Assembly (NCBI GenBank): GCA_947589425.1
Contig: CANQAV010000008.1
Location: 1 to 64,000, forward strand
Source: Candidatus Gastranaerophilales bacterium
GTDB lineage: Bacteria; Cyanobacteriota; Vampirovibrionia; Gastranaerophilales; Gastranaerophilaceae
Direction: 5' to 3'
Length of the DNA stretch: 64,000 bases
In this document: positions 29,408 to 37,921 of the stretch, one piece after another
How the letters are laid out: every line of letters starts with the position of its first letter
How positions within the stretch are numbered: the stretch's first letter is position 1
Made by a program: the position numbers and the translations under genes
The notes under the pieces: generated by a model
What the model was told of the DNA's origin: nothing
What the model saw: the letters and a program-made list of their open reading frames with translations, nothing else
Database searches by the model: none

Positions 29408-29485
29408 GGGAGCGTAGCTCAGTTTGGTTAGAGCGCTTGCCTGTCACGCAAGAGGTCGCGGGTTCGAGCCCCGTCGTTCCCGCCA
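29408..29485 (+). tRNA. tRNA-Asp (GTC)
   Basis: A 78-nt cloverleaf. The acceptor stem is GGGAGCG with CGTTCCC (one G-T pair). The D-arm is GCTC...GAGC, the anticodon arm CTTGC-CTGTCAC-GCAAG with anticodon GTC, and the T-arm has loop TTCGAGC. Discriminator G is followed by an encoded CCA. A terminator follows at once. The adjacent downstream DNA looks acquired. Confidence 0.97.
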
Positions 29486-29492
29486 TATAATT

Positions 29493-29518
29493 AAAAAAGC
29501 CCCAATCGGGGCTTTTTT
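29493..29518 (+). terminator. Terminator after rplU-rpmA-tRNA-Asp
   Basis: A strong stem AAAGCCCC with GGGGCTTT and a 4-nt loop region, flanked by A6 and T6. It ends the ribosomal protein/tRNA transcript. Confidence 0.92.
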
Positions 29519-29537
29519 AATACTTATTTACGGAATA

Positions 29538-29583
29538 TTAAGCTTGATGCGCTTTTAACTTCACATCAGACATTTTATCGCAG
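29538..29583 (-). pseudogene. Remnant of the 3' end of an HExxH peptidase gene (direct repeat, left copy)
   Basis: On the minus strand these 46 bases read CDKMSDVKLKAHQA and a stop, matching the last 14 residues (CDKMSAMKLKAHQG) of the intact gene at 36911-37921. The DNA matches 36911-36956 at 41 of 46 bases, in the same orientation, starting exactly at the stop codon. Upstream, the frame hits a stop three codons away, so this is a relic of a paralogue or a duplicated end. Confidence 0.8.
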
Positions 29584-29656: not shown

Positions 29657-29685
29657 TTGACAGGTAAACTATTAAATAGTAAAGT
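29657..29685 (+). promoter_or_regulatory. Promoter and operator of the island operon
   Basis: TTGACA (29657-29662), 17 nt, TAAAGT (29680-29685). The spacer contains a perfect inverted repeat ACTATT-A-AATAGT (29668-29680) that runs into the -10. This is the classic place for a MarR repressor to block RNA polymerase, and the first gene, 23 bp downstream, encodes a MarR protein. Confidence 0.65.
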
Positions 29686-29708
29686 AATTTTATCGGGATT
29701 AAGAAACT

Positions 29709-30173
29709 ATGACAAAAACTCTGAAACTTGAGCAGGAATGCATATATAGCATTGTAGGCGCATATAATTTATTGCTTAAAAACCTTGAAAAAGTTTTTAA
29801 ACCATACAACATTAGTGTTTCCAAATTCAATATTTTAATGGTTATAAAACACAAAGCTCCAAAAGAAGGAATAAGCCAGATTGACATTGGCTCAAAACTA
29901 ATTGTGGGAGAAGCAAATATTGCAAAAATAACAAATAAATTATACGAACAATGTTATATTACAAGAAAAACCAATCCAAATGACAGAAGATACAACCTTT
30001 TAAAAATTACAAAGAAAGGCTCTGATTTACTCGATGAAATTTGGCCTAAATATTTAAAAGCCGTAGAAAATTTAACAAAAAATTTAAAAAAAGATGAAAA
30101 AGATATATTAATTAAAATAACAAAAAACTGGACGGAATCATTAAAAAAGAAAGGTTTGAAAGAAATTGACTAA
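29709..30173 (+). CDS. MarR family transcriptional regulator
   Basis: Dimeric winged-helix regulator, 154 residues. The recognition helix region is ISQIDIGSKLIVGEANIAKITNKL, followed by the wing with the MarR signature DRRYNLLKITKKG (near 97-109). Long helices at both ends form the dimer interface. As first gene of the island, behind a palindrome placed between -35 and -10, it probably represses its own operon and is released by a pathway product or precursor. The Shine-Dalgarno is weak. The next gene starts inside its last codons. Confidence 0.88.
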   Translation: MTKTLKLEQECIYSIVGAYNLLLKNLEKVFKPYNISVSKFNILMVIKHKAPKEGISQIDIGSKLIVGEANIAKITNKLYEQCYITRKTNPNDRRYNLLKITKKGSDLLDEIWPKYLKAVENLTKNLKKDEKDILIKITKNWTESLKKKGLKEID

Positions 30174-31152
30174 CGTTAAAATTATTGCTACGGGCTCATA
30201 TTTGCCCCCCAAAACAGTAACGGATGATATTTTTGACAAAAGATTTAATCTTGAAAAAGGGACAACTTTTAAAAAATCCGGTGTTAAAATAAGACACTAT
30301 GCAGAAAGCGAAACGCAAGTTGATATGGCCATATATGCAATTAAAGAAGCATTTAAGGAAATTGAAGATAAAAATATTGATTGTATTGTTTTTGCAGGCG
30401 GAACACCACAGCAGCTAATTCCTTGCACTGCTTCATTAATTCAAAAAGCATTAGGAAAGGAATATAATTGCATTCCATGTTTTGATATAAATTCAACCTG
30501 CCTTAGCTTTGTAACTGCGTTTGATACAATTTCTTATTTAATTGATTCCGGAAAATATAAAAGAATTCTTTTGGTTTCAAGCGATATAGCATCTCCGGGA
30601 ATAAACAAAAAAGATTTCAACAGTTCAATTTTATTTGGAGATGGAGCCGCAGCCGCTATTATAGAAAAAACACCCGATAATGGAACATCCGGAATTTTAA
30701 CCTATAATTTTAAAACATTTGGTGAAGGTGCTCAATATGCCAGAATTTCAGGTGGTTCAAGTTATCTACCGTCTTATAAATACAGCAATGAAAACAGGGA
30801 TGAATATTTATTTCATATGGACGGATTAAAGCTCTATGAAATAGCTTCAAAACACATTGTCAAGATATTTAATGATGCACTGGATAGTCAAAACCTGACA
30901 CTTGATGATATTAAGCTTGTAATTCCTCATCAGGCAAGCTTAATGGCAATGAAATTAATACAGAGGAAATTAAAAATTCCAACCGAAAAATACATGTATC
31001 ATATAGAAAATCAAGGCAACACAATTGCTTCCTCAATCCCTCTTTGCCTTGATTATGCAATTAAAAATAAAATGGTGAAAAGAAAAGATAAGGTAATTTT
31101 ACTTGGAACATCAGCAGGCTTATCAATAGGAGTAATGGTATTTGAGTATTAA
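30166..31152 (+). CDS. KAS III-like beta-ketoacyl synthase
   Basis: Thiolase-fold condensing enzyme of the FabH/OleA superfamily, 328 residues. The Cys-His-Asn triad is visible: Cys112 in NSTCLSFVTAF, His255 in VIPHQASLMA, Asn285 in ENQGNTIASSIPL. It would join an acyl-CoA or acyl-ACP starter to a malonyl-type or second acyl extender by Claisen condensation. The gene is not in a fatty acid locus, so a specialised starter-loading role is more likely than housekeeping FabH. The start is TTG, overlapping the marR end by 8 nt. It is coupled to the ATP-grasp gene by an 11-nt overlap. Confidence 0.9.
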   Translation: MTNVKIIATGSYLPPKTVTDDIFDKRFNLEKGTTFKKSGVKIRHYAESETQVDMAIYAIKEAFKEIEDKNIDCIVFAGGTPQQLIPCTASLIQKALGKEYNCIPCFDINSTCLSFVTAFDTISYLIDSGKYKRILLVSSDIASPGINKKDFNSSILFGDGAAAAIIEKTPDNGTSGILTYNFKTFGEGAQYARISGGSSYLPSYKYSNENRDEYLFHMDGLKLYEIASKHIVKIFNDALDSQNLTLDDIKLVIPHQASLMAMKLIQRKLKIPTEKYMYHIENQGNTIASSIPLCLDYAIKNKMVKRKDKVILLGTSAGLSIGVMVFEY

Positions 31153-32281
31153 AAATATTTTAATAACAGGCTCACGTGCCCCTGCCGCACTTTTTTTAAT
31201 AAGAAAATTATCAAAAGAAGGATATAATATATTTACTGCTGAGAGCTGTGATTATTTTTTGGGTAAATATTCAATTTGTGTTAAGCGAAATTATAAAATT
31301 ACAGCACCTAATGCAAATTTTGAGCAATTTATAAAAGATATCATTGAAATTATCCAAAAAGAAAAAATTGACCTGATTATTCCGACTTGCGAAGAAATTT
31401 TTCATATTTCAAAGGAGAAAAAGACTTTAGAAAAATATTGTCAAGTCTTTTGCGATAATCTTGAAAACTTACTTGAATTACACAATAAATGGAGTTTTTA
31501 TAACAAAATTAAAAATTCAAATTATGATATTAAACTGCCCCAAAGCTGGTATATTGAAACCTTAAATGATGTAAAAAATATAATTAAAGATAATCAAAAA
31601 TATATTTTAAAACCTGTTTATTCAAGGTTTGCAGCAAAAACAAAAATTATTGATAAAATTCCAAAAAAGCTTGAATACAATCAATATATCCTGCAAGAAT
31701 TTATTGAAGGAGAGCAATTTTGCAGTTATTCAATTATAAAAAACCGTAAATTAAATCTATATAGTGATTATAAAACAATATACAGTGCTAATGGCGGAGC
31801 AACAATAGCTTTTAAGTATGCGCAAAATGAAAAAATAAAAGAATTTGTTGAAAATTTTTCTAAAAATGAAAATTTTGAAGGTCAAATAGCTTTTGATTTT
31901 ATACAAAATGATAACGGTTTATATTTAATTGAATGCAACCCAAGACTAACAAGCGGTATTCAATTATTTAACGAAGATATATCCGAAGCATTTTTATCTG
32001 ATAAACAAATAAAAACTTATTATCCCAAAAAAGAAACTAAATCCGTATTATTTCTTGCAATGTTAATTTATAGCTTATCTAACATACATTCTTTTAAAGA
32101 TGTTATCAGTTGGTTTGAAACAACATTTTTATCAAAAGATGTTATATTTGATAAATATGATATAAAACCATTTTTAATGCAAGGGTTTATAATGATTATG
32201 ATGATAATATCAGGGTTAAAACAAAATATTAATTTAAAAGAAATATCAACTTATGATATAGAATGGAACGGAAATGACTAA
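31142..32281 (+). CDS. ATP-grasp ligase
   Basis: Carboxylate-amine or carboxylate-thiol ligase of the ATP-grasp superfamily, 379 residues. An N-terminal pre-ATP-grasp Rossmann domain (NILITGSRAPAALFLIRKL) is followed by the ATP-binding lobes with YILKPVYSRFAAKT and ILQEFIEGEQFCSYSI. The metal-binding motif is LYLIECNPRLTSGIQ (Glu, Asn, Arg). The last 100 residues are less conserved and contain a hydrophobic stretch (FLMQGFIMIMMIISG) that may touch the membrane. It probably forms an amide or ester on the pathway intermediate. TTG start. Confidence 0.87.
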   Translation: MSIKNILITGSRAPAALFLIRKLSKEGYNIFTAESCDYFLGKYSICVKRNYKITAPNANFEQFIKDIIEIIQKEKIDLIIPTCEEIFHISKEKKTLEKYCQVFCDNLENLLELHNKWSFYNKIKNSNYDIKLPQSWYIETLNDVKNIIKDNQKYILKPVYSRFAAKTKIIDKIPKKLEYNQYILQEFIEGEQFCSYSIIKNRKLNLYSDYKTIYSANGGATIAFKYAQNEKIKEFVENFSKNENFEGQIAFDFIQNDNGLYLIECNPRLTSGIQLFNEDISEAFLSDKQIKTYYPKKETKSVLFLAMLIYSLSNIHSFKDVISWFETTFLSKDVIFDKYDIKPFLMQGFIMIMMIISGLKQNINLKEISTYDIEWNGND

Positions 32282-33248
32282 GGCAATTGTTACTGGGGCA
32301 ACAGGTTTTTTAGGATTTCATCTTGTAAAAAAATTGAAAAAAATGAATTTTGAAGTCATCGGACTCGGACGAAATATTGAAAAAGGCAATAAATTAAAAG
32401 AATTAGGCGCAAAATTCATTTCCGTTGATTTATCAGAAAAAGAAAAATTAGATAAAATTTTTCAAGATATTGATTATGTTTTTCATTGTGCAGCCAAATC
32501 AAGTGTTTGGGGAGATTATAAATCTTTTTATAAGGCAAATGTTGAAGGTACAAAAAATATAGCTGATATATGTTTAAAAAATAATGTAAAAAGACTTATT
32601 TATGTTTCAAGCCCAAGCATATATTTTGATTTTAAAAATAAATTAAATATAAAAGAAACGGAACTTCCGACAAAACACCCCGCTAATAATTATATAAAAA
32701 CAAAAATTATAGCAGAAAGTGTTATTGATAATGCTTATAGTCAAGGGCTGGACGTTATTACAATCCGCCCGAGAGGAATTTTCGGCTCGGGTGACAGTGC
32801 TATCTTACCTCGCCTGTTAAAAGCAAACAGAGAAAAATTTATACCAAAAACCGCAAAAGATGATATTTTAATTGATATAACACATGTTGATAATGTTGTT
32901 ATTGCAATGATTTTGGCAATGCAAGCGGATAAAAAATATAACGGTGAAAAATATAACATTACAAATGATGAAAGTATTTATTTATTTAAAACTTTAGAAA
33001 ATATACTTAAAAGCAGGAAAGAAAAGTTTAATTCAAAATATATTCCTTATAACTTGATGTTTTTACTTGTATCAATAATAGAATTTTTATATAAATTTAT
33101 CCCAAACAAAGAGCCCGCATTCACAAGATATTCGCTTGGGCTTTTATCATTTAGCCAGACTCTTGATATAACAAAAGCAAAAAATGATTTAAAATATAAA
33201 CCGATAATTTCTATTGAAGAAGGCTTAAAGGAGTGCCTGAATGATTGA
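32274..33248 (+). CDS. NAD(P)-dependent reductase, extended SDR (3beta-HSD/OleD-like)
   Basis: Extended short-chain dehydrogenase, 324 residues. The cofactor motif is TGATGFLG (7-14), and the catalytic residues are Ser in YVSSPSIYF and Tyr140/Lys144 in NYIKTK. Two segments, HCAAKSSVWGDYKSFYKANVE and the C-terminal TRYSLGLLSFSQTLDITKA followed by SIEEGL, are the kind seen in 3beta-hydroxysteroid dehydrogenase and OleD proteins, which act on beta-keto or beta-hydroxy substrates. It fits reduction of the ketone made by the KAS III-like enzyme. ATG start with an 8-nt overlap. A hydrophobic patch near 257-275 may associate with membrane. Confidence 0.87.
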   Translation: MTKAIVTGATGFLGFHLVKKLKKMNFEVIGLGRNIEKGNKLKELGAKFISVDLSEKEKLDKIFQDIDYVFHCAAKSSVWGDYKSFYKANVEGTKNIADICLKNNVKRLIYVSSPSIYFDFKNKLNIKETELPTKHPANNYIKTKIIAESVIDNAYSQGLDVITIRPRGIFGSGDSAILPRLLKANREKFIPKTAKDDILIDITHVDNVVIAMILAMQADKKYNGEKYNITNDESIYLFKTLENILKSRKEKFNSKYIPYNLMFLLVSIIEFLYKFIPNKEPAFTRYSLGLLSFSQTLDITKAKNDLKYKPIISIEEGLKECLND

Positions 33249-34044
33249 ATATAAAATATTAAAAGCGGGATATTGCCTTCAAAACGAATTATGCTCAATA
33301 ATAAAAGGCAAAAACAAACAAACAAAATTTTATGCAATGTTTGTTCTTTTGAAACACGAGAAATACGGAAATATATTATTTGATACGGGTTATAGTAATT
33401 ATTTCTATGAAGCTTCTCAATTTTTTCCATATTCAATATATGAAAAAATCACCCCTGTTTTTACGGATAAACAAAATTCGGCAAAATATCAACTTGAGCA
33501 ATTAGGAATTAACTCAAACGACATTTCATATATTATTATTTCTCATTTCCATGCCGACCACATCGGAGGTCTTAAAGATTTTAACAATGCAAAATTTATA
33601 TGCCATAAAGAAGCATATAGTTATTTAAAAAATAAAAAAGGGGTAAGTGCGCTCAAAGAAGGTTTTTTGCCAAATTTATTACCTGATGATTTTGAAAAAA
33701 GATTAATAACTTTAGAGAATAAAATTATATCAAGCGATTTTAAGCCATTCGACAGTTATTATGATGTATTTAATGATAAAAGTATTCTTGCTTTTGATTT
33801 ATCGGGGCACGCCAAAGGGCAAATCGGAATACTTGTTAATGATAAATTTTTTGCAGCTGATTCTTGTTGGCACAGTAAGTCTTATAAGAAAAATCTTCCG
33901 CCGCCCTTATGGGTCAGATTGCTTTTGGGTGATAACAAAGAATATTTAAAAACTTTAGATAAACTGCATCAATTTTACGATAAAAATCCCGAAATTGAGA
34001 TTATACCATCACATTGTAACGATTTTTGGAGTAAATATGTTTAA
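33241..34044 (+). CDS. Metallo-beta-lactamase-fold hydrolase
   Basis: Two-metal hydrolase, 267 residues, without a signal peptide. The HxHxDH motif is SHFHADHIGG (102-107). The other ligands lie in DLSGHAKGQIG (His), FAADSCWHSK (Asp) and EIIPSHCNDF (His). The spacing is like N-acyl-homoserine lactonases and related small-molecule esterases or lactonases. In this operon it may hydrolyse a thioester, lactone or ester intermediate, or give self-protection. ATG start overlapping the reductase gene by 8 nt. Confidence 0.88.
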   Translation: MIEYKILKAGYCLQNELCSIIKGKNKQTKFYAMFVLLKHEKYGNILFDTGYSNYFYEASQFFPYSIYEKITPVFTDKQNSAKYQLEQLGINSNDISYIIISHFHADHIGGLKDFNNAKFICHKEAYSYLKNKKGVSALKEGFLPNLLPDDFEKRLITLENKIISSDFKPFDSYYDVFNDKSILAFDLSGHAKGQIGILVNDKFFAADSCWHSKSYKKNLPPPLWVRLLLGDNKEYLKTLDKLHQFYDKNPEIEIIPSHCNDFWSKYV

Positions 34045-35326
34045 AACATTAATTATCTTATATTTTTATTTTAAAACCAAATATTTTAACAAATTTTCAA
34101 ACAGAAGCGCTCTTTTAAATTGGCAGGATAAAAAAGTCGAAGGGTTTCTGAATAAAATCCTGAAAAAATCGAAATATTATAATGCTAAATTCAAAGGTTT
34201 AAATTTGGCCGATTGGAAAGATTTTCCAACAATTGATAAAAAAGAATTAATGGAGAATTTTGATAATCTGAATACCGTTAATATTTCAAAAAAAGAAGCG
34301 TTTGAATTTGCATTAAATTGCGAAAAAACAAGAAATTTTAAACCCGAAATAAATAATATTACAATAGGTTTATCATCAGGCACTTCAGGCAACAGAGGAT
34401 TATTTTTGGTCAGCAGATTTGAGCAGTGCCGCTGGGTCGGGATGATACTTGCCAAAATGCTGCCTTATTCAATTTTAAAAAAACACAAAATAGCTTTCTT
34501 TTTAAGAGCTAACAGCAATTTATATGAAAATGTCAAAAGCCGGAATATTGATTTTGAATATTTTGATATGATAAATAGTATTGATGAAAATTTAAAAAAA
34601 TTAGATAATTTTAAACCGACTATTATCGCTGCACCGCCTTCAATGCTGAAAATAATAGCTAAAAATATTTCAAATCTCAATATAAACCCGGTTAAAATAA
34701 TTTCCGCAGCAGAAGTTTTGGAAGATATAGATAAAAAATATTTGGAAAAAACCTTTAATCAAACAATTCATCAAATCTATCAAGCTACAGAGGGATTTTT
34801 AGCTTGTACATGCAAATATGGAAACCTTCACTTTAACGAAGATATTGTTGCCATACAAAAAGAATACATCGGCGAAAATAAATTTATCCCTATAATTACT
34901 GATTTTAAAAGAACATCTGAACCTATTATAAGATACAGGTTAAATGATATTATAACGGAAAGCCCCAAAACATGCCCGTGCGGCTCTAAACATCTTTTAA
35001 TTAAAAAGATTGAAGGCAGATGTGATGATATTTTTTATCTTGAATCAAATAACGGCAACTCATTAGTCTCGATTTTTCCTGATTTTATTTCAAGAGCAGT
35101 TATTTTTGCATCTGACATTATTGAAGAATATAAAATAATCCAAATTTCAAAAGATGAAATACAAGTTTATATTGATAAAATGAGCGAATTTAATAAGGTG
35201 AAAGATTCATTAACTAAATTATTTCATAAACTGAATTGCAAAATACCGAACATAATTGAGCTTAGTATTTTATCAACAGATAATTCTAAAAAATTTAAAA
35301 GAATAGAAAGCAAAATTAATGGATAA
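34037..35326 (+). CDS. F390-synthetase/CapK-like adenylate-forming enzyme
   Basis: ANL-type enzyme of the PaaK/F390 synthetase/CapK branch, 429 residues from ATG 34037, which has GGAG six bases upstream; a frame extension 14 codons earlier is not supported. The AMP-binding loop is SSGTSGNRG (113-121), the adenine-site region IYQATEGFLAC, and EPIIRYRLNDI with Asp follows. A CxC cluster (CPCGS) sits near the hinge. The N-terminus is hydrophobic (FKTLIILYFYFK). It activates a carboxylic acid as acyl-AMP, passing it to CoA, a carrier or an alcohol/amine. It overlaps its neighbours by 8 nt on each side. Confidence 0.83.
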   Translation: MFKTLIILYFYFKTKYFNKFSNRSALLNWQDKKVEGFLNKILKKSKYYNAKFKGLNLADWKDFPTIDKKELMENFDNLNTVNISKKEAFEFALNCEKTRNFKPEINNITIGLSSGTSGNRGLFLVSRFEQCRWVGMILAKMLPYSILKKHKIAFFLRANSNLYENVKSRNIDFEYFDMINSIDENLKKLDNFKPTIIAAPPSMLKIIAKNISNLNINPVKIISAAEVLEDIDKKYLEKTFNQTIHQIYQATEGFLACTCKYGNLHFNEDIVAIQKEYIGENKFIPIITDFKRTSEPIIRYRLNDIITESPKTCPCGSKHLLIKKIEGRCDDIFYLESNNGNSLVSIFPDFISRAVIFASDIIEEYKIIQISKDEIQVYIDKMSEFNKVKDSLTKLFHKLNCKIPNIIELSILSTDNSKKFKRIESKING

Positions 35327-36461
35327 CATATTTTTATATGATAAAAATAATATCGATTCTTTGGTTATTCCCGATAATGAAGATGCAAAATATGCATACA
35401 ATTATTTAACGCCTATGATTAAAAACGGGGTTAAAAAATATATTAAAAACATTGATAGCGATTTAAAAATTTTAAACATTGATGATATATTATTGCCCGT
35501 TAATATAAATGAAAAAGAATATCAAAATTCTTATACATCATCTTTATATGCCCATTACGTATCATATGCCAAAGAAGAACTGCATGAACTCAAAAGTCCT
35601 GTTTTGAAATTTATTTTAAAATTTATACTTAATATTTTAGGATATTTTTATAAATTGTTTGAGATTGATAAAGTTGTATATGTAAATAATTGGTTTTTAT
35701 CTACAAATCTATATCTTAAATTATCAAAAGAGCAATACAAAAAGATTAGCGATTTTCTTAAAGCAAAATATCCGAATTACGCAATTGTTTTTCGCTCATT
35801 AAATAATAGTTTACTTGAAAATGAAATTTCTTATTTAAAAAAATTAGGATATAAAATGCTTGGAAGCAGACAGGTTTATATATTTGATTTTAATAAACGA
35901 TATAAACTCAAAGGAAAAGATAAAAACAAACTGTATAAAGATATAAAGCTATTAAAAAACAGTGAATATAAAGTAGCGGATATAAATAATAATTGTATAA
36001 GAAAGGCTTTAGAATTATATAATCAGCTGTATTTAGACAAATATTCCGAATATAATCCGCAATTTTCAGAAGAATATATAGAATTATGCCATAAAAATAA
36101 TCTGTTAAACTTTAAACTTTTGTCAAAAGACAATAAAATAAACGCTGTTCTTGGTTATTACAAAAGAAATAATATTATGACAACCCCCATTTTTGGCTAC
36201 GATACAACTCTTCCGAAAAATGAAGGATTATATAGGATGTTATCTGCCCAACTTGTGCTTGAGTCTGAACAAAACGGATGTACCATAAATATGAGTTCAG
36301 GTGCAAGCAAATTTAAAATATATAGAGGCGCAATACCATCAATTGAGTATTCTGCCCTATATTATTCCCATTTGCCTTTTTATCGAAAATCAGGATATAG
36401 ATTACTGCTTTTTGTAATTAATAAAATCGCAATTCCTTTGATTAAAAGTCAAAAATTATAG
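35319..36461 (+). CDS. GNAT-fold acyltransferase-like protein
   Basis: A 380-residue protein, last gene of the island operon. The N-terminal third is unassigned with a hydrophobic region (FILKFILNILGYFYKLF, about 96-112). The C-terminal part (about 200-360) looks like a GNAT or FemAB-type acyltransferase (KINAVLGYYKRNNIMTTPIFGYD, then SSGASKFKIYRGA). The acceptor is unknown; it may transfer an acyl or aminoacyl group in the final step. ATG start with an 8-nt overlap. It ends 6 nt into the convergent broken ligase gene. Family assignment is tentative. Confidence 0.65.
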   Translation: MDNIFLYDKNNIDSLVIPDNEDAKYAYNYLTPMIKNGVKKYIKNIDSDLKILNIDDILLPVNINEKEYQNSYTSSLYAHYVSYAKEELHELKSPVLKFILKFILNILGYFYKLFEIDKVVYVNNWFLSTNLYLKLSKEQYKKISDFLKAKYPNYAIVFRSLNNSLLENEISYLKKLGYKMLGSRQVYIFDFNKRYKLKGKDKNKLYKDIKLLKNSEYKVADINNNCIRKALELYNQLYLDKYSEYNPQFSEEYIELCHKNNLLNFKLLSKDNKINAVLGYYKRNNIMTTPIFGYDTTLPKNEGLYRMLSAQLVLESEQNGCTINMSSGASKFKIYRGAIPSIEYSALYYSHLPFYRKSGYRLLLFVINKIAIPLIKSQKL

Positions 36462-36839
36462 ACTTTCATACCATTCTTTTAAATCTTTTCTTTTAACCTT
36501 ACGGGTTGAAGTTTTAGGAAGTTCATCCCTATGTAAAACCACAACCGTTGGAGCTTTATACGGAGCAAGGTTTGCTTCGGATAATTTCTTAACTTCTGTT
36601 TCCAATTCTTTTTGAATTTCTTCATCTGTTTTCTTTTGTAAATCATCCGCCGGTGTAATTATCGCACCAACTTCTTCCATTCCTGCTTTATTTCCTGACT
36701 TTATGGTTAAAGACATAACACAGACTTCTTTTATTAAATTTGATGTTTCAAGTACAGCTTCAACTTATTCGGGGAAAATTTTCTTTCCGCCGCCTAAAAC
36801 TATCATATTTTTAATTCTGCCTGTGAGCTATTTGTTTGC
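36456..36839 (-). pseudogene. Broken 3' end of an acyl-CoA ligase/acyl-ACP synthetase gene
   Basis: The 86-residue frame at 36716-36456 is only the C-terminal lid of an AMP-forming ligase (LAPYKAPTVVVLHRDELPKT, then RKVKRKDLKEW). Reading upstream in the same frame continues the family sequence, LTGRIKNMIVLGGGKKIFPE, then a TAA (36767-36765) where Glu is expected, then VEAVLETSNLIKEVCV. Another stop, TAG, lies at 36830-36828. Everything before this is missing. It is therefore a decayed remnant, not a small gene. Confidence 0.88.
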
Positions 36840-36910
36840 AAATATATTAAGTAAAACTATATTTCACAAATAATTACATCTTATTTCGTGTGCTAAACTA
36901 CAACAGCACA

Positions 36911-37921
36911 TTAACCTTGATGTGCTTTTAACTTCATGGCAGACATTTTATCGCAGGCAGTTTCGGCATCTTTTTTTGTACCCTGAATTCGGTTTTGCAT
37001 AGCAAGCGCCAATTTAACGCCAAGCGCACCCGATGCCGCAAATGCCAAATAAGTACTGAAACCGAGCGCATTACATTTTGCAACATTTCTGCCCAATTTC
37101 TTTGCAAGTTCGCCCTTCTTTATGAGCTCATTTGCCATTTTTTGACCCCTGAGGGATGCAATAGCTTCTTCTAAAAGTATTGGCAGGCAGGATAAAAACG
37201 CAATTTTAGGTGCGTGTTTTACGAATGTTTTTTTCAAATCCGCTTTTTTGTTGTCAGAGGATACTTTTTTATCATCTTTTTTTCTGTTTAATATAAGAGA
37301 CGATAGTAATGTAACAACAGGCAAAACCCTGCCCAAAGGATATAATTTACCGAGTGCTTTCAGATTACCGTTAGCATTCAATGCATGACCCATTTCATGG
37401 AAAATTATACCCTGAAGTGATTTCTCGGGAGCAACAATAAGATTTTTTTGTTTGCAAAAGAACGCATTAACTCCTTCTATACACTCAATTAATCTTGTCT
37501 TTATGGCAATATCAAAACCGTTGTCCAACGCTTGTTTATATTTGTCAGGAAAAAGTCTTGATAAAAATTTATATCCTTTACCGTTCTTAATGGCATCCCT
37601 TAATTCTTCAAGGGCTTTTTTATTATTCAAAGTTTCAAAAGAAAGAAACTCATCCGTCCTCAGCAATTTAACGCCTTTTTTATTTAGTCCCGAGGTTTCC
37701 AATGTTTTTTTAATGGCGCCCTGCAGCGACTCTGTTTCTTTATCAGGCAATGCGGTTTTTTTTATAAGCTTGATGAAAACCTTATCAAATTGATTCTTGC
37801 ATGTCGATGATAATGCTAAAGAAGTTGTCATAGGCAGCACAACAGTGTTTGCAAAACTGTTTCTTTCCGAAGAATTATTTAATTTGACGTTTGTTTTATT
37901 AGAATTAACCGAAACAGACAT
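36911..37921 (-). CDS. Membrane-associated HExxH zinc peptidase, uncharacterised family
   Basis: A 336-residue protein I cannot place in a named family. The zinc-binding motif HEMGH (175-179) is followed by a candidate third ligand in LLEEAIASLRGQ (Glu251/252), a gluzincin arrangement. Hydrophobic segments lie near 197-211, 239-250 and 285-305. The N-terminus is Asn/Ser-rich without a signal peptide. The tail ends CDKMSAMKLKAHQG, and a decayed copy of exactly this tail lies at 29538-29583, implying a multi-copy family. AAAAGGAAAG precedes the ATG. Substrate unknown. Confidence 0.75.
   Translation of the reverse strand: MSVSVNSNKTNVKLNNSSERNSFANTVVLPMTTSLALSSTCKNQFDKVFIKLIKKTALPDKETESLQGAIKKTLETSGLNKKGVKLLRTDEFLSFETLNNKKALEELRDAIKNGKGYKFLSRLFPDKYKQALDNGFDIAIKTRLIECIEGVNAFFCKQKNLIVAPEKSLQGIIFHEMGHALNANGNLKALGKLYPLGRVLPVVTLLSSLILNRKKDDKKVSSDNKKADLKKTFVKHAPKIAFLSCLPILLEEAIASLRGQKMANELIKKGELAKKLGRNVAKCNALGFSTYLAFAASGALGVKLALAMQNRIQGTKKDAETACDKMSAMKLKAHQG

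Follow-up and report, generated by a model that had tools for sequence, protein, structure and literature searches.

Introduction

Several described systems unite enzymes of the kinds considered here. OleABCD clusters combine a thiolase-fold condensing enzyme (OleA), an extended short-chain dehydrogenase/reductase (SDR; OleD), an adenylate-forming enzyme (OleC) and an alpha/beta-hydrolase (OleB) (PMC7064751). In OleA, Glu117 reaches into the active site of the partner; CorB and MxnB carry Val at this position, the meaning of which has been discussed (PMC4578411). A second carbonyl is believed to activate the nucleophile of these two enzymes. They are the free-standing ketosynthases of corallopyronin and myxopyronin, where they serve large polyketide synthase (PKS) assembly lines and join two beta-ketoacyl chains bound to acyl carrier protein (ACP) into an alpha-pyrone (PMC4901931). 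In the Pseudomonas quinolone pathway, the acid-activating ligase PqsA, the beta-ketoacyl-ACP synthase III (KAS III) PqsD and the metallo-beta-lactamase-fold (MBL) hydrolase PqsE act together. The NCBIfam family TIGR02304 is named 'F390 synthetase-related protein', and its model name assigns no substrate. Here we describe an operon that encodes a KAS III, an ATP-grasp ligase, an SDR, an MBL hydrolase, a TIGR02304 ligase and a dual GNAT protein, in a 64,000-nucleotide stretch (the window) of contig CANQAV010000008.1 from a Candidatus Gastranaerophilales bacterium. An original prediction, made from the letters of the window, had seen at 29657-36461 a seven-gene small-molecule pathway cassette with no named counterpart. 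We likewise found no description of the operon, no paper on its four-gene version in E. coli and none on TIGR02304, PRK07204 or PRK06849 in the open-access literature searched, which misses most subscription journals.

Results

A six-gene operon is conserved across bacterial phyla

Seven plus-strand open reading frames (ORFs) lie within 29657-36461. As had been predicted, their ends overlap, and the overlap of each gene with the next is 8-11 bases. Pfam and NCBIfam agreed with the predicted labels of the MarR, KAS III, ATP-grasp, extended SDR, MBL-fold and F390-related adenylate-forming proteins, and the GNAT label was recovered through orthologues and a structure model. No carrier protein was seen among the ORFs of at least 80 amino acids (aa), again in line with the prediction. 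Six of the seven genes belong to the operon:

30166-31152, plus strand: KAS III, PRK07204-like and CorB/MxnB-like; TTG start; C112/H255/N285
31142-32281, plus strand: ATP-grasp ligase, PRK06849-like; TTG start; model resembles PylC and L-amino-acid ligases
32274-33248, plus strand: extended SDR, OleD-like; S112, Y140 and K144 invariant
33241-34044, plus strand: MBL hydrolase; full metal site; closest to N-acyl-homoserine lactone (AHL) lactonases
34037-35326, plus strand: F390 synthetase-related adenylate-forming enzyme (TIGR02304); ATG start, with a TTG at 33995 that also opens the frame
35319-36461, plus strand: predicted dual-GNAT acyl/aminoacyltransferase of FemX/MprF fold, from the model and orthologue Pfam matches

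A tblastn search of plasmids located KAS and F390-like genes a few kb apart in Bacillota, Pseudomonadota and Fusobacteriota. Paenibacillus urinalis carried six genes in the order of the window, Pontibacillus five of them and Paraburkholderia a rearranged six-gene set, and a four-gene core of KAS, SDR, MBL and F390-like genes was present in Ketogulonicigenium, Paracoccus, Pseudomonas and E. coli. Scanning the species genomes of GTDB yielded the 80 loci that best matched the F390-like profile, headed by Succinimonas amylolytica (69% identity); they were dominated by Paenibacillaceae and included cyanobacteria and a Parachlamydiaceae metagenome-assembled genome. Hosts of the operon fall in Bacillota, Pseudomonadota, cyanobacteria, Chlamydiota and Fusobacteriota.

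Of the 100 loci in total, all but one (99) had a recognisable F390-like gene. Counted from the F390-like side only, MBL was nearby in 93, KAS in 89, SDR in 88, ATP-grasp in 77 and GNAT in 58 of these 99. The four core genes lay on one strand in 83 of the 99 loci, with the order KAS-SDR-MBL-ligase kept in 81 of those 83, and all six genes occurred in 47 loci, 44 of them in the window's order. Genes in the conserved sets mostly overlapped or were separated by at most 20 bp (medians -4 to -22 bases). Distance matrices of the four core proteins correlated with r = 0.75-0.86, a level reached by none of 999 permutations, which indicates at the level of sequence that the core proteins co-evolve. Because the identical gene order recurs across phyla, the grouping goes beyond chance. 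These results make it close to certain that KAS III, ATP-grasp, SDR, MBL, F390-like ligase and dual GNAT form a conserved operon. The proposed pathway cassette thus passed the gene-neighbourhood check suggested with it, in that its enzyme genes are not scattered and keep their order across phyla.

In Pseudomonas megaplasmids (L025, L026), the core genes were dispersed among hypothetical genes, with KAS and F390-like genes 9-18 kb apart.

The KAS III resembles CorB and MxnB and differs from FabH and OleA

The predicted Cys112-His255-Asn285 triad was present and invariant in 11 diverse homologues; this OleA-type triad is general to KAS III. In profile searches the nearest solved relatives were CorB and MxnB (E 1.4e-91 and 3.7e-88), with which the cassette enzyme shares the Q-x-x-P and CLSF motifs and the absence of a catalytic glutamate. 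PqsD was also a relative, with a much weaker match. At the position of the OleA glutamate, the window enzyme has Ile and 34 of 34 cassette KAS proteins have Ile or Leu, as against Glu in all three reference OleA proteins and Val in CorB/MxnB. A tree separated the cassette KAS proteins from OleA on a branch that is long but has 100% support. Identity as an OleA orthologue was rejected on the missing glutamate. With the FabH model TIGR00747, the window KAS scored 207 bits, below the cut-off of 292.1, and a separate FabH elsewhere in the genome scored 361 bits, above it. Plain FabH identity was thus discarded, and the expectation that the KAS III is something other than FabH held.

Unlike CorB and MxnB with their PKS assembly lines and alpha-pyrone products, the cassette contains no PKS and has a reductase and a ligase. 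If the nucleophile gains its reactivity from a second carbonyl, as is believed for CorB and MxnB, the extender used here would by analogy probably be malonyl or beta-ketoacyl.

Family relationships of the other five enzymes

The Ser-Tyr-Lys residues of the SDR were invariant. Two OleD models (NF042423 and NF042422) were the top NCBIfam matches of all six cassette SDRs examined, below cut-off; the window SDR reached 241 and 197 bits against a cut-off of 580. In the MBL enzyme the metal site is complete (HxHxDH/H190/D207/H258). Its closest relatives were AHL lactonases, with scores of 77 and 51 bits for the AttM and AiiA models (cut-offs 390 and 375), and PqsE was a weaker relative. The F390-like protein is a clear member of TIGR02304 (530 bits, cut-off 251.9) and falls far below the coenzyme F390 synthetase model TIGR03335 (24.9 bits, cut-off 458.7). 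Its ANL motifs are intact, and its nearest solved relatives are PaaK enzymes.

For the ATP-grasp and GNAT proteins, family profiles searched against PDB sequences returned nothing useful (ATP-grasp E up to 1e-6), and structure models were used instead. Foldseek placed PylC and L-amino-acid ligases among the top matches of the ATP-grasp model (pLDDT 94); in a second structural comparison the best row was carbamoyl-phosphate-synthase-like, and PylC was tied with several carboxylase-type enzymes. The GNAT-like protein had no significant Pfam match alone, and its orthologues match Acetyltransf_6/FemAB_like. Modelling (pLDDT 95) gave a dual GNAT of the FemX/MprF type, whose best matches were aminoacyl-tRNA-dependent peptide synthases, FemX and MprF (Z about 14-17.5 over about 250-285 residues). 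We therefore predict a transferase with a FemX/MprF-like dual-GNAT fold, which does not fix the donor.

The set was compared with true ole clusters. Like OleABCD, it brings a thiolase-fold condensing enzyme, an OleD-like extended SDR, an adenylate-forming enzyme and a hydrolase into one cluster. It differs in a KAS III that lacks the OleA glutamate and lies outside OleA, in a TIGR02304/PaaK-like ligase in place of OleC, in an MBL hydrolase in place of the alpha/beta-hydrolase OleB, and in the added ATP-grasp and GNAT genes; the OleC ligase with OleB alongside that would mark an OleABCD member was not found. With PqsA, PqsD and PqsE it shares the combination of acid-activating ligase, KAS III and MBL hydrolase, whereas the sequence relation is weak, SDR, ATP-grasp and GNAT are extra, and there is no PqsBC pair. 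Since the FabH, OleA-glutamate, OleD cut-off and Ole-system tests failed and TIGR02304 membership and closeness to CorB/MxnB held, the cassette may couple condensation of the CorB type to processing of the Ole type and yet not be an Ole system.

Lipid-type genes accompany the operon in several lineages

About one in eight complete E. coli genomes (672 of 5,426) carried the four-gene core, nearly always on the chromosome, and in the copies L022, L156 and L157 it lies between narI and a tRNA-Tyr pair. The E. coli copy is accompanied by genes for a PAP2 phosphatase, an OlsE-like hydroxylase and an acyl-CoA desaturase. A second SDR was present in 36 of the 100 loci; its best model with a named substrate was 3-ketodihydrosphingosine reductase (216 bits, cut-off 400). 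In L033 an acyl-ACP/phospholipid acyltransferase gene follows the operon. As far as gene content can tell, these accessory genes in several lineages support, without proving, a lipid-like or acyl-chain product, where the prediction had named a signal, lipid or antibiotic. Rieske oxygenase-like genes with weak similarity to 4beta-methylsterol monooxygenase come after the operon in Shinella (L029:10282-11271) and Paenibacillus chitinolyticus (L092:14421-15560).

A beta-hydroxy-acyl product is the favoured reading

We propose that the four-enzyme core of KAS III, SDR, MBL and F390-like ligase, joined here by the ATP-grasp ligase and the FemX/MprF-fold dual GNAT, acts as follows. The CorB/MxnB-like KAS III would load an acyl group on Cys112 and condense it with an activated malonyl- or beta-ketoacyl-thioester on a host ACP or coenzyme A. 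The MBL enzyme would free the beta-keto acid (or open a lactone), and the OleD-like SDR would reduce the beta-keto acid to a beta-hydroxy acid. The F390-like enzyme would then adenylate the carboxylate, and the ATP-grasp ligase and dual GNAT would attach an amino acid or amine. That a horizontally transferred operon makes a beta-hydroxy-acyl lipid or lipoamino acid by these steps is a reading to which we give slightly less than an even chance; we hold it moderately likely that the product is of an acyl or lipid kind, and the exact steps and their order are a proposal. It is doubtful, with a real but limited chance of being right, that the operon makes an undescribed class of beta-hydroxy-acyl lipids, aminoacylated in the six-gene version, and has passed between gut, soil and aquatic bacteria of different phyla, with its four-gene core reused in E. 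coli beside the desaturase, hydroxylase and phosphatase genes.

A number of observations weigh against the favoured reading. F390-like/PaaK enzymes often use aromatic acids or phenols rather than fatty acids, and the MBL enzyme is closest in sequence to lactonases, not thioesterases. The folds modelled for the GNAT and ATP-grasp proteins do not settle which donors they use, and since the four-gene versions do without both, not every copy can carry out the amide/aminoacyl step. The accessory 'lipid' genes are confined to some lineages, and the second SDR sits mostly in Paenibacillaceae-dominated loci.

Among the rivals, an Ole-like route following OleABCD-type logic is unlikely. The four enzyme roles match, OleD models lead the matches of the cassette SDRs and the MBL enzyme is lactonase-like, but the OleA glutamate is missing throughout the 34 cassette KAS proteins, which stand outside OleA with full support on a long branch; moreover, the ligase is TIGR02304/PaaK-like rather than OleC and the locus has no alpha/beta-hydrolase OleB. 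We consider somewhat less likely still an aryl-ketone pathway of pqs-like design, where the PaaK-like ligase would activate an aromatic acid, KAS III extend it once, the MBL enzyme serve as thioesterase in the manner of PqsE and the SDR reduce the ketone. The solved PaaK relatives of the ligase and the presence of PqsD and PqsE among the KAS and MBL relatives speak for it. Yet CorB/MxnB and the lactonases are much stronger matches than PqsD and PqsE, a desaturase and a fatty-acid-hydroxylase-like protein are encoded in the E. coli version, and no genes for supplying aromatic acids stood out in the conserved set.

MarR regulators and lactonases are found in degradation operons, and here the lactonase-type metal site is intact, which would suit a catabolic or detoxifying operon under MarR, in which the MBL enzyme opens a lactone or acyl compound and the ligase activates it for degradation. 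Such a role is improbable, for KAS III enzymes condense and do not cleave, the amide ligase and FemX-like transferase are biosynthetic, and MarR is no part of what is conserved. Every one of these enzyme classes is common by itself, so one might also see chance neighbours around a KAS III that is merely a second FabH; the conserved order across phyla, the co-evolution of the core and the genome's own, higher-scoring FabH refute this, and its probability is negligible.

An enzyme set that keeps its order in Paenibacillus, cyanobacteria, a chlamydia and gut bacteria likely makes something useful to its hosts, and it would bring the CorB-like and the Ole-like logic of condensation, both known, together with the TIGR02304 ligase family. 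One metabolite from any host would assign function to several conserved hypothetical families together.

MarR is a local addition with a candidate promoter

Upstream of the operon the following features were noted:

29657-29685, plus strand: putative promoter TTGACA-17-TAAAGT
29668-29680: palindrome ACTATT-A-AATAGT between the promoter hexamers, a candidate MarR operator
29709-30173, plus strand: MarR-family regulator (Pfam/NCBIfam), outside the conserved operon

The remaining gene, marR, had been predicted to sense the product level as part of the system. Its membership of the system was not supported: regulators adjoining other operon copies were TetR-like, ArsR-like or none obvious, and because they differ between loci, the comparison marks MarR as a local addition and not a member of the conserved unit. 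The single promoter of the prediction has a good counterpart in the best-scoring plus-strand site upstream of marR, about 23 bases before the gene, with the palindrome inside it. Such sites abound in AT-rich DNA of this kind, with 61 in the sequence against 46 expected, and the assignment of TTGACA-17-TAAAGT as the cassette promoter is for that reason suggestive only. The local MarR may control this promoter.

The window's copy was acquired next to tRNA-Asp

Among 28 genomes of the genus, one carries the cassette; the DNA of the 27 congeners without it matches the window up to about tRNA-Asp and shows no match in the cassette. In a sample of the phylum, the F390-like gene exceeded its cut-off in 9 of 386 genomes. 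All six proteins are nearest to those of the gammaproteobacterium Succinimonas (56-71% identity) and less close to those of a genome of the host's own order (45-56%), and the KAS tree joined window and Succinimonas with 100/99 support. Judged from these comparisons, the window's copy was horizontally acquired by the host. No relative was found in viral_contigs in a search for viral carriage. The acquired region adjoins tRNA-Asp and is bracketed by a direct repeat:

29408-29485, plus strand: tRNA-Asp (GTC), called by ARAGORN; left border of the acquired region, where the congener DNA match ends
29490-29521, plus strand: terminator-like hairpin after tRNA-Asp
29537-29583: left copy of the 47-bp imperfect direct repeat (89% identical) that flanks the region
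36456-36826, minus strand: remnant, from the C-terminal end, of a gene of the acyl-ACP synthetase/acyltransferase type; outside the operon
36910-36956: right copy of the 47-bp direct repeat

The remnant abuts the operon, and its DNA is 77% identical to the stretch encoding the C-terminal end of a gene that is full-length (1160 aa) in a congener (L142). The right repeat copy overlaps the 3' end of a 336-aa minus-strand gene (36911-37921); the repeat may stem from a duplication or mark an integration scar. In Succinimonas, an 835-aa ORF upstream of the operon (L031:2853-5360) looks transposase-like by eye only, which would fit mobility.

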